Source: Pseudomonadales bacterium (lineage in GTDB: Bacteria > Pseudomonadota > Gammaproteobacteria > Pseudomonadales > Pseudohongiellaceae). Taken from it: a DNA stretch of 64,000 nt. Shown here in pieces: positions 3,022 through 51,023 of the stretch (its first letter is position 1; each line of letters begins with the position of its first letter). The notes beneath the pieces are model-generated. The model worked only from the letters and a program-made list of their open reading frames with translations. It did not search any database and was not told the origin of the DNA. Made by a program: the position numbers and the translations under genes. The stretch is from NCBI GenBank assembly GCA_022819645.1, contig JAJEGU010000036.1:1-64000 (forward strand). Reading direction: 5' to 3'.

Positions 3022-3281
3022 GTGAGTCAAGAGAAGCCACGGGCAATTCCGGCGAGCGCCGCAGGTCTGGATACGTCGATTCTGCGCCGCATACTGACGA
3101 TTTTCGTGTTGATGACACCGCCGGGAATCGTCTTCGGCACGACGGTTTCCAACCTGATGGTGGGTGAAATCGCCGAACTGGCCGAGGGCGTTTTCAACGC
3201 GCTCGCCCGGGAACCTTCATCTATGTCGCTATCAAGGACGTGATCGGAGGAGAATTGTGGCTCACCCGGGCATCCCGCTGA
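3022..3281 (+). pseudogene. ZIP-family metal importer, frameshifted C-terminal remnant
   Basis: A frame opens at GTG 3022 and reads IFVLMTPPGIVFGTTVSNL followed by AELAEGVFNALA. This resembles the last membrane helices of ZIP zinc/iron importers. The reading then loses the family pattern near 3206-3211. In the next frame the sequence continues GTFIYVAIKDVIGGELW, which is the conserved ZIP tail (A-A-G-T-F-x-Y-V-A). A small indel has therefore broken the gene, and the N-terminal two thirds are missing. The remnant starts 7 bp after znuD ends, so a receptor-ZIP operon probably existed. It is unlikely to be functional. Confidence 0.65.
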
Positions 3282-47368: not shown

Positions 47369-47442
47369 CCGCGCCGCCTTCGGAAAAACAGTTTTCACAG
47401 TGACTTTTTCGGATTTAATTCCGAATTGGTTAGCATCCCCGC

Positions 47443-47829
47443 TCACGCAAACTTGATCGGGCAAGGGTAATTTCCGAGCAACTTGTCGCTGGTGAGCAGT
47501 GTTATGCCCTCGACCTGCGCCTGCGCGGCTAGCATGCGGTCAAACGGATCTTTGTGTATCGGCGGCAAGGACAGCACGAAAGCGGCGTGGTTCCCGGAAA
47601 TCGGTAATTCCTCGTATCCATTCTCCAACAGGCCGCGGCGCAGCACATGCGGGTCAACATTGAAGTCATCGCGGCCCAGGCCGCGTTTTATGGCGACTTC
47701 CCAGATCGAGGCGGCGCTGAAAACTCTTGTCGTATCGCTTGCCTCAATCAGTTCCCTCGTTTCCGGGCGCAAGCGTTCAGGCGCCGCGGCCGCCAGCAGC
47801 AGCAAGTTGGTGTCGATCAAGAATTTCAC
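47443..47829 (-). CDS. vapC: VapC-family PIN-domain toxin
   Basis: The 128-residue PIN-domain RNase shows the acidic residues in FLIDTNLLL, SIWEVAIKRGLG, KDPFDRMLAAQA and LLTSDKLLGNY. All four conserved positions are present, so it should be active. The start overlaps the antitoxin end by 4 bp. The pair lies directly downstream of xylA in the opposite orientation. Confidence 0.92.
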   Translation of the reverse strand: MKFLIDTNLLLLAAAAPERLRPETRELIEASDTTRVFSAASIWEVAIKRGLGRDDFNVDPHVLRRGLLENGYEELPISGNHAAFVLSLPPIHKDPFDRMLAAQAQVEGITLLTSDKLLGNYPCPIKFA

Positions 47830-48065
47830 GTTTCACCTTCGAACATCGACTCGATTTCCGAGGCGCCGAGCTTATCGAAGTCTTCGGGTATCTCAAACTT
47901 TCCGCGCAAAAAACCAACCGGCGTCGGCTCCGGCGCCCCGTCAAGACTGACCACCTTGACCAGCGGCTTGCCGGCTCTGGCTATGACAAAAGGCTCTCCC
48001 TTGACCGCACTCTCCACGAGCCTGGAAAGCTGAGTCTTCGCCTCGTGCATGTTAACGACCCTCAT
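47826..48065 (-). CDS. Phd/YefM-type antitoxin
   Basis: The 79-residue protein starts VVNMHEAKTQLSRLVESAV, the Phd/YefM DNA-binding fold, and continues FVIARAGKPLVKV. The C-terminal part should wrap the toxin. It precedes the PIN toxin with a 4-bp overlap. The likely autoregulated promoter lies in the AT-rich repeat TAGTCTAGTCGCTCTAGTTT at about 48082-48102. Confidence 0.9.
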   Translation of the reverse strand: MRVVNMHEAKTQLSRLVESAVKGEPFVIARAGKPLVKVVSLDGAPEPTPVGFLRGKFEIPEDFDKLGASEIESMFEGET

Positions 48066-48392
48066 GACGGCATTCCCTAATTAGTCTAGTCGCTCTAGTT
48101 TAGTTTATAACCTAAAAGGGAGCAACCCGGAGACTACGACAATCCCGCGCCTAGCCGAGTACTGGCAGCCATATATCTGCGTGACTGATGGTCCATCTGA
48201 CCCCATGACCGCCCGACCGTGCGGACAGGACGACCGGGTATTTGATTGCGCCCAATTTGCCATTGACTCGAATTCCCTCTGCTTGGTAGGATTCGAGTCA
48301 TCCAGCGACTCCCGAGTTACTCATTAGGTTGGAGCGTGGACTAGGAAGAGGGCTCCATTTGGAGCCCTCAATTATTTTGGGGGATTCTGGAT
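48066..48392 (+). other. Noncoding region with two hairpins ahead of the NYN gene
   Basis: No credible gene. It contains GACTCGAAT (48265-48273) pairing with ATTCGAGTC (48291-48299). Further on, GAGGGCTCC (48348-48356) pairs with GGAGCCCTC (48361-48369), followed by AATTATTTT. The second is terminator-like and ends about 15-23 bp before the NYN start codon, so it may attenuate expression or end a short upstream RNA. Confidence 0.55.
48348..48378 (+). terminator. Terminator-like hairpin in the NYN gene leader
   Basis: A 9-bp perfect GC-rich stem with ATTT loop is followed by AATTATTTT. The GGGGGA Shine-Dalgarno of the NYN gene starts right after it. Confidence 0.5.
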
Positions 48393-49205
48393 TTGCGTTG
48401 CGCAGTCTTTGTAGATGCTGGCTACCTGTATGCTGCGGGATCCGAACTCTTGGGCGGACGCAAAATGTCCCGCAGCCAAATCCAACTGGATATCCACAAG
48501 GTTCTCTCTAGCTTGCGTGATGTCGCCGCCGAGGCGTCTACTCGGGATTCCTTCCTTCGCGTGTATTGGTACGATGGCGAACTTCGCACCGGATCAACGA
48601 CTGAACAGGAACAGCTAGCCGACACGGATGGCGTGAAACTGCGATTGGGAACGATAACTTTCGCCGGTCGACAGAAAGGCGTGGATTCCTTGATCGTGAC
48701 CGACCTGATCGAACTCGCACGTAATCGCGCGATCTCAGATGCAATTCTTGTGTCTGGGGATGAGGATGTGCGCATCGGCGTACAGATCACGCAGAGTTTC
48801 GGTGTGCGTGTACATCTTCTCGGAATCGAACCGTGTTCCCAGAACCAATCGCGGCTACTTCGCCAAGAAGCAGACTCGACTATCAAATGGCAACGATCAG
48901 ACATTGAGCAATTCCTCACAATCATAGAGCGCGCCACCGATGCGGAAAACGTGCCTCCGGCAAAGATTGATCAATCACCCTCAAATCAAGCGGAACTCGA
49001 CACCGCGATAAGTGAATTCGTTCGCGACTGCTCTGCAGATGAATTAGCTACCTTAGCCGAATTGGAAAAGCGAGCACAGATTCCGCCCAACCTTGACCGG
49101 CGGCTTCTCGGTAGTGCCGCGAAAAAAGTAGACCGTCTGCTAGAAAACGAAGAACGGACATACATTCGGCTAGCCGTCAAACACCTCGCTCGCGGCTTGC
49201 GCTGA
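48393..49205 (+). CDS. NYN-domain (PIN-like) putative nuclease
   Basis: The 270-residue protein has an N-terminal NYN domain (about 1-150) with the acidic residues expected of the fold: D8 in CAVFVDAGYLY, D98 in QKGVDSLIVTD, D104, and D123/D125 in LVSGDEDVRIGV. NYN proteins are RNases related to PIN and FLAP nucleases. The C-terminal about 110 residues are helical and unassigned; they may be an OST-HTH-like or partner-binding module, which I cannot confirm. The start is TTG 48393 with GGGGGA 8 bp upstream. It precedes a PLD-like gene on the same strand by 127 bp. Confidence 0.82.
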   Translation: MRCAVFVDAGYLYAAGSELLGGRKMSRSQIQLDIHKVLSSLRDVAAEASTRDSFLRVYWYDGELRTGSTTEQEQLADTDGVKLRLGTITFAGRQKGVDSLIVTDLIELARNRAISDAILVSGDEDVRIGVQITQSFGVRVHLLGIEPCSQNQSRLLRQEADSTIKWQRSDIEQFLTIIERATDAENVPPAKIDQSPSNQAELDTAISEFVRDCSADELATLAELEKRAQIPPNLDRRLLGSAAKKVDRLLENEERTYIRLAVKHLARGLR

Positions 49206-49332
49206 CATTACAAGCAAGTCTAGACTCATGTTGCCTTGGGTGTGACAATCACGACCCCCACAAGAGGATCATCTAAACGCACCTTGCTTGGCCTCTTGAA
49301 GCGAACACATTTTAAACATAAGGAGTCAAGAT

Positions 49333-50679
49333 ATGGATCTTGTTTTGGGGAAAATTAACGGTAATTATCTTAGATTCTATACAGATAATTTCTCAGAAAA
49401 TACAGAAGAAGTTTTGGCAGCAGTGGCTTATGCAACTGACGAGGAATTACTTTTTAATTGGTGTTTTGATCGCAGCATTCCGTTAAAATTTTATGGAAGA
49501 TTAGACGATGATGTGGCAGTAACTGTGCCTATACTGGAAAAATTCTTAAGAAAGAGTTCAAGCTCAAGTGCGTATACATGCAAACTAGTTCAACACCATC
49601 ACGCAAAAGTGATTTGGTGGCGTGGTGTGGGAGTGTATATCGGTTCTGCCAACCTGACTAATAGCGCTTGGATAAAAAACATTGAGGCAGGATGTTTTTT
49701 CTCCGAAGATGAACTAGATGACAAGATAGTAATGGAATTGTTAGATCTATTCAAAGTTTTAGAAGAGAACTCGACACCACTTACAGAGGAATTACTTAAA
49801 CTAATGAAAGATCGCTCAAACCAAATTCGCGAGAATTCTCCTAGCTCAGAGAAATTTTGGAATAATCCTAGCATAAAGAAATGGCCGGGGCTAATTACAG
49901 TACAATCTCATGATGCAAATACTATTAGCCGCCAAAATTTCCTTGAAGAATGGTATTCTACATTGCAAACTCTTAGGGATATTGGTCTGCGAGTTAGCGA
50001 TAAGAAATGGAGACCATCTTGGGTCGACGATCAAGCTGCGACTGGAGCGCAAGCCGATCAATTTCTTCACGCTCACTACTATAATCATGTACTTGTTTCA
50101 AAAAGATCTACTCATAATGAACTGTATGAAAAAAACAAGAATAGAAATGAGGAAGCACTATCTGATGCTTTAGAATGGTGGAGAGATACTACAGAAGCTC
50201 CTACTGGAGAAGATGTAACGCTAAACGAGAAGGTGCCTTATTTACGCGCAGCTTTATCAGAACGATCCCTGACATCTCTTGACTCTGCTAAATTTTACGA
50301 AATATGTAAGCGTGTAAACGCGATTTGGGAGTATTCTCGTCGAGTATCTAATAAAACAGTAGGGCTTCCCGATAATGGTTCTTCATACACAATGGAAGAC
50401 AAACTGAAAGCATTATCACGGAAAATTTGGAATGAAAATACTTCGGATGGCAAGGCAGTTGCCTCAGTTCTCAACTTCATTTTGTACGAAGGAAACAGAG
50501 ATCAGTTACCCGAACGCCTCTGGCAAAGTATTTTTGACCCGAAATGGAAGATACCAGGACTTGGTATAAGCTCACTTGGTGAAATTGTTGGATGGGCATT
50601 ACCTGACACGTTTCCCCCAAGAAATGGACGTACATCAAAAGCGCTAAAATCTCTAGGATTTCCGGTTACAGTGCATTAG
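49333..50679 (+). CDS. PLD/HKD-domain protein, putative nuclease
   Basis: The 448-residue protein has a single phospholipase-D-type motif: H90-A-K92, then G104-S-A-N107 (VYIGSANLTN). An Asp is not seen at the usual position after HxK. Proteins with one HKD motif (Nuc, BfiI) act as dimers, and similar HKD domains occur in restriction and anti-phage proteins. The remaining 300 residues are Trp-rich (KKWRPSWVDD, EWWRDTT, RLWQSIFDPKW) and unassigned. AT-rich relative to neighbours, so likely acquired. ATG 49333 has AAGGAG upstream. Function unknown; a defence role is inferred from domain and context only. Confidence 0.7.
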   Translation: MDLVLGKINGNYLRFYTDNFSENTEEVLAAVAYATDEELLFNWCFDRSIPLKFYGRLDDDVAVTVPILEKFLRKSSSSSAYTCKLVQHHHAKVIWWRGVGVYIGSANLTNSAWIKNIEAGCFFSEDELDDKIVMELLDLFKVLEENSTPLTEELLKLMKDRSNQIRENSPSSEKFWNNPSIKKWPGLITVQSHDANTISRQNFLEEWYSTLQTLRDIGLRVSDKKWRPSWVDDQAATGAQADQFLHAHYYNHVLVSKRSTHNELYEKNKNRNEEALSDALEWWRDTTEAPTGEDVTLNEKVPYLRAALSERSLTSLDSAKFYEICKRVNAIWEYSRRVSNKTVGLPDNGSSYTMEDKLKALSRKIWNENTSDGKAVASVLNFILYEGNRDQLPERLWQSIFDPKWKIPGLGISSLGEIVGWALPDTFPPRNGRTSKALKSLGFPVTVH

Positions 50680-51023
50680 AAATTGGCTACATAAAAAGTC
50701 TGCTCTGAGTACCAGAATGCGGAGGTTCAGGTACTGCTTACGCGGATAATCACAGAGTTGCGATCTATCTGGAGAGTGCAAAATGGGATTTCTGCAACCT
50801 GAAGTCAACTAAACTTCAAGATGTTCCGTCCGCAGGCCTCTACTATGTACCATGTAGTTTGAGTATCTTAGCCTGGGTAGCACAAATCAATAATGGCACC
50901 GACCGGGTCTCGCCCTTGAAAATCGGCGGAAGCATACTTATATTTGCGTGCCTGAAACGGGCGCCCGTGTGGGGGCCGGGTGTATCGGGCATGGATCGGG
51001 CATAGACGGGGAATTGCGAACCA
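50680..51023. other. Region between the PLD gene and the ABC operon
   Basis: A frame at 50709-51005 stays open for 98 codons on the plus strand but begins right after a TGA and has no early ATG/GTG/TTG, so it is not called as a gene. It may be the degraded end of a former gene. I see no hairpin or tRNA. The ABC ATPase promoter should lie in the last 100 bp. Confidence 0.4.

Follow-up and report, generated by a model that had tools for sequence, protein, structure and literature searches.

Within a 64,000-nucleotide (nt) stretch of a Pseudomonadales bacterium contig (JAJEGU010000036.1; the window), a conserved structured RNA of ~78 nt with two hairpins (positions 48300-48377, + strand) lies directly upstream of a gene for a NYN ribonuclease (48393-49205, +; 270 residues, TTG start). 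Together they form a small module that is found on phages, prophages and plasmids and that, on the evidence of sequence comparison and by analogy, would work in the manner of a type III toxin-antitoxin system or of AbiF; we give this reading a probability of a little over one half (about 0.57). A sequence-only reading of the same DNA had proposed that a VapBC pair, NYN and a PLD-type nuclease formed one defence or RNA-processing unit. It was right that NYN and PLD are members of nuclease families that are mobile and associated with phages, and that the hairpin in the NYN leader matters, but the three do not make one unit; judged from comparison of loci, the actual unit is NYN with its leader RNA.

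The leader RNA and its link to NYN

In the window the RNA follows a predicted sigma70-type promoter (48263-48292, +) composed of TTGACT, an 18-nt spacer and TAGGAT, which agrees with the consensus at 9 of 12 positions. Hairpin 1 (48302-48339, +), with arms at about 48302-48312 and 48331-48339 as read from the sequence, varies in its letters and is conserved in its fold; it does not come out cleanly in the minimum-free-energy structure of the window leader taken by itself. Hairpin 2 (48348-48369, +), in the 3' half of the RNA, is terminator-like, with 9 base pairs and a 4-nt loop (GAGGGCTCC-ATTT-GGAGCCCTC, then AATTATTTT). This hairpin had been noticed from the sequence alone, and it is more than a chance feature of the leader because it is part of a conserved, covarying RNA. 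The same anatomy, comprising a TTGAC-type promoter, hairpin 1, a short linker, GC-rich hairpin 2 and the start codon, is common to five viral-contig relatives with 44-48% identical NYN proteins. TTGAC is the best -35 box in 21 of 26 leaders, and in 19 of those 21 the predicted -10 box ends 97-106 nt before the second NYN codon. The counterpart of hairpin 2 ends 21-31 nt before that codon in 25 of the 26 (the exception is a Streptomyces locus, L181), placing the end of the terminator-like hairpin ~18-28 nt before the start codon. The block of hairpin 1, linker and hairpin 2 is kept in loci whose sequence further upstream differs.

Two covariance models, R1 (built from 14 leaders) and R2, both made with the window left out, matched the RNA at 35 of 42 NYN loci, 23 of the 35 being on viral contigs, phage records or plasmids. 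Matches were found in 5/5 of the first viral-contig relatives, 13/13 newer relatives, 5/6 plasmid or phage records (six taken from 15 database matches), locus L159, 4/9 phylum genomes (a set that leaves out the window's own genome), 6/7 new order genomes and the window itself; the 42 include identical or near-duplicate loci (L100/L098, L174/L173, L178/L176 and L180/L171). Among the 28 loci outside the training set of R1, 21 were matched, 20 of them by R1 at E up to 0.01. The weakest R1 matches were the window (22.2 bits, E = 0.01) and L159 (E = 0.025), where R1 did no better than opposite-strand noise and R2 gave E = 3e-4. All 29 matches of at least 22 bits in the 350 kb searched lie at NYN leaders. 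With R2, the leader outscores every other place in the window, at 27.1 bits (E = 2e-4); the next independent place reaches 12.5 bits. A search of 398 genomes with R1 gave matches in 49 at E up to 0.01, with 59.5 bits beside the NYN gene of genome G134, a weak 26.4 bits beside that of G233, and at most 35.3 bits in the others. A strict RNA-first sequence pattern was run over 2.9 million viral contigs and hit 13, every one of them a NYN contig: in 12 the second NYN codon comes 27 or 31 nt after the motif, and in the 13th the fetched stretch ends before NYN, which the same contig carries in L101. This pattern misses five of the 18 viral-contig leaders known here.

The pairing is also supported by compensatory change. 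In a MAFFT alignment (A9), 97.5% of cells pair, and two-sided changes occur in 13 cells, compared with 3.7 after shuffling (0/500 shuffles), and in six pairs, compared with 2.6 (2/500). Model-guided alignments were added because MAFFT misaligned hairpin 1 of the diverse leaders. The model-fitted alignment A11 (30 sequences, without the window) has two-sided changes in 17 of 21 pairs, including all nine pairs of hairpin 1, and in 86 cells, compared with 20.9 after shuffling (0/500), and pairing drops to 41-53% when the structures are slid; A11 leans towards the model structure, and its counts are of related sequences, not of independent events. Rfam gave no match at the six leaders tried (E up to 1), with three weak matches elsewhere in those loci.

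On an Azospirillum thermophilum plasmid (L177:2737-2982), a single NYN gene is preceded by two separate, tandem copies of the RNA, each with its own terminator-like hairpin 2; the first ends ~180 nt before NYN, and the second lies between. By eye, two-hairpin leaders also precede two distant NYN genes (L186:1378-1446 and L188:208-288) that the models leave unmatched. The family of RNAs may extend beyond what the models capture.

The NYN ribonuclease and the proposed role of its RNA

The window protein scores 49.6 bits against Pfam NYN (PF01936; cut-off 24.2), and D8, D98 and D123 are invariant in 16/16 NYN sequences, which places it among NYN-domain ribonucleases. The AlphaFold model (pLDDT 88.0, pTM 0.65) comprises the NYN domain (residues ~1-177), a low-confidence linker (181-194) and a helical C-terminal part (199-268). 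In the available portion of a report on a CRISPR-associated NYN ribonuclease of Bacteroides fragilis, the active site of the tested enzyme is D13/D118/D143; the three window aspartates correspond to these by spacing, the last two being 25 residues apart in both (PMC11346440). The window NYN shares with that enzyme the domain and the three conserved aspartates, and differs, as far as the same source describes it, in being paired with its own RNA and in its helical C-terminal part, with no CRISPR neighbour noticed in the window (PMC11346440). From its domain and three conserved aspartates, NYN is likely to be a metal-dependent ribonuclease. Pfam matched the window protein to NYN alone, without Abi_2; the three NYN proteins tried against NCBIfam had no match; PHROGs gave none for the window protein at E up to 1e-4 and a weak one for the relative in L166 (phrog_5783, 31 bits); and a profile of six NYN sequences, searched against solved structures, found no match at E up to 0.1. 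In several viral contigs, NYN has phage tail, portal or terminase genes nearby.

Two Sinorhizobium plasmids carry close relatives of each other. In Sinorhizobium fredii pNGR234a (L178:2995-3846) NYN is annotated from an internal start at 3202, ~207 bp later than in the close relative L176, so that the annotation separates NYN from its leader RNA. An annotated RES-Xre toxin-antitoxin pair lies directly downstream of the RNA and NYN in both (L176:3935-5019 and L178:3935-5020).

ToxIN, CptIN and TenpIN are type III toxin-antitoxin systems, and the RNA-NYN pair resembles these systems in having an RNA gene, a terminator and an endoribonuclease gene in one predicted transcript and in being mobile. 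The RNA gene is directly upstream of NYN in 35/42 loci, with transcription predicted, and terminator-like hairpin 2 stands between them in 25/26 leaders, with termination predicted and the T-run often imperfect. The pair differs from type III systems in that its RNA has no tandem repeats, each locus having one unit except for the two separate units in L177. Its effector has the NYN fold, not the ToxN fold, with the window protein matching Pfam NYN and neither ToxN, CptN nor TenpN, and its inhibition by the RNA is putative.

AbiF/RCd22, from prophage phi027 of Clostridioides difficile, offers a second comparison. In the part of the report available, transcription mostly stops at a terminator and readthrough makes the toxin, which RCd22 RNA neutralises by direct binding, in cis and in trans (PMC12373285). 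On the same partial account, the RNA-NYN pair shares with it carriage by prophages, one promoter, a short structured RNA, a terminator with the effector gene close behind, and conservation of the RNA beside the gene; it differs in having a NYN effector, not Abi_2, and a ~78 nt RNA whose terminator is preceded by a single variable hairpin in place of two abiF motifs (PMC12373285). Membership of the AbiF family itself (Abi_2 with the abiF RNA motif, RF03085) was considered and set aside, given the absence of an Abi_2 match and of an Rfam match at the six leaders, with the presence of RF03085 in the searched copy unconfirmed. By sequence comparison, then, the pair falls outside both type III toxin-antitoxin systems and AbiF as these are defined, having no repeats, another protein family and no Rfam match, and it would work like them if the analogy holds. 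No account of an RNA-NYN pair was recognised among titles and abstract openings, a scope to which subscription papers and most preprints did not belong.

From the conserved aspartates and the AbiF/RCd22-like layout we infer a NYN toxin restrained by its RNA, with a possible role in defence or prophage maintenance. Most transcripts would stop at hairpin 2 and yield abundant RNA, and readthrough past it would yield little NYN, which the leader RNA would bind and keep inactive. When an infecting phage shut down host transcription, the short-lived RNA would be lost, and the ribonuclease, now free, would cleave RNA and halt either the phage or the cell. The more specific proposal of a new RNA-restrained ribonuclease family, in which a compact, non-repeat, phage-carried RNA serves as antitoxin or sensor acting in trans on a NYN nuclease unrelated to ToxN and Abi_2, is one that we hold tentatively, at slightly less than even odds.

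Several observations weigh against an RNA-restrained NYN module. Many members have a poor T-run after hairpin 2, and the RNA lacks the tandem repeats discussed above. Seven of the 42 NYN loci (L181, L184, L186, L188, L190, L191 and L231) and five remote NYN matches outside the 42 (L103, L104 and L160-L162) have no model match, so NYN exists without the RNA. In the window's own genome, a plain terminator at C14 outscores the leader with R2 on both strands (32.8 and 30.6 compared with 27.1 bits); being the best place in the window and outscored in its own genome, the window copy is a divergent member of the family, identified by position and model together. The R1 search of 398 genomes gave weak matches in 47 that are not known to adjoin NYN, of which the one inspected, C14 of the window's own genome, is a plain terminator, and at E up to 0.01 it missed the true leaders of G148 and G160. 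PADLOC gave the window NYN a weak HEC-09 match (E = 0.022) and three relatives none, and the single phage copy tried (L169) had no megablast match in E. coli genomes.

The best-surviving alternative is that the RNA acts in cis only, hairpin 2 being an attenuator and NYN expression being set by NYN itself, or by an antiterminator from a phage, acting on the NYN leader, with no inhibition in trans. Nucleases are known to regulate themselves through their leaders, and both the position of the RNA directly before NYN in the loci found and the terminator-like form of hairpin 2 agree with it. We nevertheless regard it as unlikely. A purely cis role needs no second copy, so the two complete tandem copies in L177, the first ending ~180 nt before NYN with the second in between, favour a role in trans; the pairing of hairpin 1 is kept by two-sided changes that a simple attenuator does not need; and the analogue AbiF combines both roles, according to the accessible part of its description (PMC12373285).

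Less probable still, and quite doubtful, is that the RNA is a working partner, that is a guide, a cofactor or a processed small RNA that directs NYN to phage or host targets and does not inhibit it. A conserved RNA paired with a ribonuclease would fit such a role, as would the loop of hairpin 1, which is fairly conserved inside the main phage group, and the CRISPR-associated NYN is proposed, in the available portion of its report, to trim crRNA (PMC11346440). Against it, as pointers only, no variable guide-like segment was recognised, and hairpin 1 changes by compensation, as in recognition of shape.

The grouping of VapBC, NYN and PLD in one unit is very improbable. What favours it is that NYN and the PLD gene (49333-50679, +; 448 residues) lie on the same strand, as had been stated from the sequence alone, and within one inserted stretch. 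Across genomes, the co-occurrence check that the earlier proposal had called for found no linkage, and the pair fails as a conserved system: the NYN protein matched in none of 95 other PLD-matching loci (L002-L096, 95 of the 104 loci searched by tblastn with NYN, E up to 1e-3, some overlapping and two being fragments). A search of 47 PLD-bearing genomes (from 54 loci submitted) turned up NYN matches of any kind in four and a full-length NYN in one; in that one the whole PLD contig (L031) has no NYN match, so the two genes are apparently on different contigs. Across 84 genomes of the genus, PLD occurs in this genome only, and NYN in this genome apart from two weak, remote matches. The two genes also differ in base composition, VapBC is found without them, and NYN is preceded by a predicted promoter and a leader of its own; upstream of the PLD genes, inspection by eye of the window and 28 relatives revealed no shared leader. 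Finally, an ordinary terminator of an upstream transcript beside a lone NYN gene is the least credible explanation: hairpin 2 alone does look like common terminators, and the weak model match inspected elsewhere is a plain terminator, but the whole hairpin 1-linker-hairpin 2 block is conserved though the sequence further upstream differs, hairpin 1 carries two-sided changes, and the RNA is tightly linked to NYN.

PLD, VapBC and the insertion site

The PLD protein is a full-length match to phrog_28026 (E = 2.7e-172, residues 1-448), a family of phage proteins of unassigned function, and is a member of it; no recognised prophage surrounds the gene in the window. Its PLDc_2 score, 25.6, falls just below the cut-off of 27. 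The single-HKD fold that had been read from the sequence stands in part: the protein has one active-site half, with H90, K92, N107 and E118 invariant in 48/48 aligned sequences, but the D of the classical HKD motif is absent. In the model (pLDDT 86.9), the N-terminal single-HxK nuclease domain matches the fold of the PLD nucleases SauUSI, NucT and Nuc (E 1.6e-5 to 4.1e-4), and the all-helical remainder is matched by none of these three, in both cases among the 50 matches listed of 186. The protein shares its nuclease half, with HxK and GSxN, with DISARM DrmC and SauUSI, and differs from them in lacking the helicase part and in having a helical remainder of its own. DrmC itself (NF038319) was rejected as an identification, the PLD protein scoring 32.5 bits against a cut-off of 133 over only 52 residues, with similarity confined to the active-site half; no drm genes occur among the flanking genes scanned (VapBC, NYN, xylose genes and ABC-operon genes).

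In 16 of 20 viral-contig PLD loci, genes for the tail tube and/or DUF6441 adjoin on the opposite strand, and three further loci lie near terminase-portal, baseplate-hub or primase genes. One of 11 phage markers was seen in 13 of 54 genome loci, the marker proteins having been taken from four of the 20 viral loci, the viral and genome collections overlapping, and loci without a marker possibly still being prophages. Full-length PLD is carried on at least five plasmids among the matches listed. By sequence and structural model, PLD is probably an independent, phage-borne accessory nuclease, often inside tail modules and acting alone.

Fragments of PLD and a comparable mixture of genes were also seen on plasmids. 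A short open reading frame on a Klebsiella plasmid (L026:4986-5249), between a TnsE gene and hsp20-clpK genes, matches only PLD residues 363-447 and looks, from its sequence, like the remnant of a phrog_28026 gene; the same fragment is present in the 15 weaker of the 20 plasmid matches listed, and 1092 of 1328 plasmid records matching PLD are from Klebsiella. A Roseomonas haemaphysalidis plasmid (L022:2765-15220) carries VapBC, an HNH gene, a UvrD-type helicase, a PLD gene (55% identical) and an annotated NYN within 12.5 kb; that NYN is not matched by the window NYN, making this a similar gene mixture with a different NYN.

VapBC consists of a VapC-type PIN toxin gene (47443-47829, -; Pfam PIN 45.2 bits, cut-off 23.6) that overlaps the gene for its partner, a Phd/YefM-type antitoxin (47826-48065, -; Pfam PhdYeFM 40.4 bits, cut-off 29.8; NCBIfam phd_fam), and both lie outside the RNA-NYN unit. 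All the open reading frames of the three nuclease-type genes noted from the sequence were confirmed, with their families, between a xylose operon (symporter, xylulokinase and xylose isomerase) and a Gld-like ABC operon, the Gld matches of the latter being below family cut-offs. The PLD gene is AT-rich, as had been noted, with 39% GC and 31% GC at third codon positions (GC3); its GC3 and that of NYN (54%), set against the 80-82% of three flanking operon genes, make both genes look foreign, to differing degrees.

Comparison with relatives' loci (blastn and junction sequences) delimits a stretch that holds the RNA, NYN and PLD (48130-50914) and is absent from related genomes. In G042 and G045, VapBC occupies the site and this stretch is missing; where the window has it, they have 162 and 284 bp of different sequence. 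Both VapBC and NYN-PLD are missing from G028, where the matching ends lie 22 bp apart, and G043 and G082 have other sequence, which includes an ATPase-like open reading frame recognised by eye only. The interval from xylose isomerase to the ABC operon (window 47369-51023; L147, L148, L149, L150 and L151) is thus a variable insertion site in the genus, being empty, or holding VapBC only or other genes. Since VapBC is at the site without NYN-PLD in two relatives, it is, by this comparison, a separate resident, an ordinary toxin-antitoxin pair and no part of the NYN unit. NYN and PLD probably arrived after VapBC, together or in turn. With regard to a degraded prophage, no phage genes were noticed beside the insert in the window, where no systematic search for them was made.

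Significance

PLD is a second, separate candidate, representing phrog_28026 as a single-gene family of phage accessory nucleases. The first is a conserved RNA tied to one NYN subfamily. ToxIN and AbiF are the known examples of toxins held by RNA, and the pair would bring one more protein fold to that group. Even if its RNA does no more than control expression, Rfam did not match this structured RNA, and its partner is clear. If the RNA inhibits NYN, the pair would be a new class of phage-borne module, perhaps for defence, with a built-in trigger; and if it does so as an antitoxin in trans, the design of RNA, terminator and ribonuclease would have arisen independently on another fold and would act in fights between phages.

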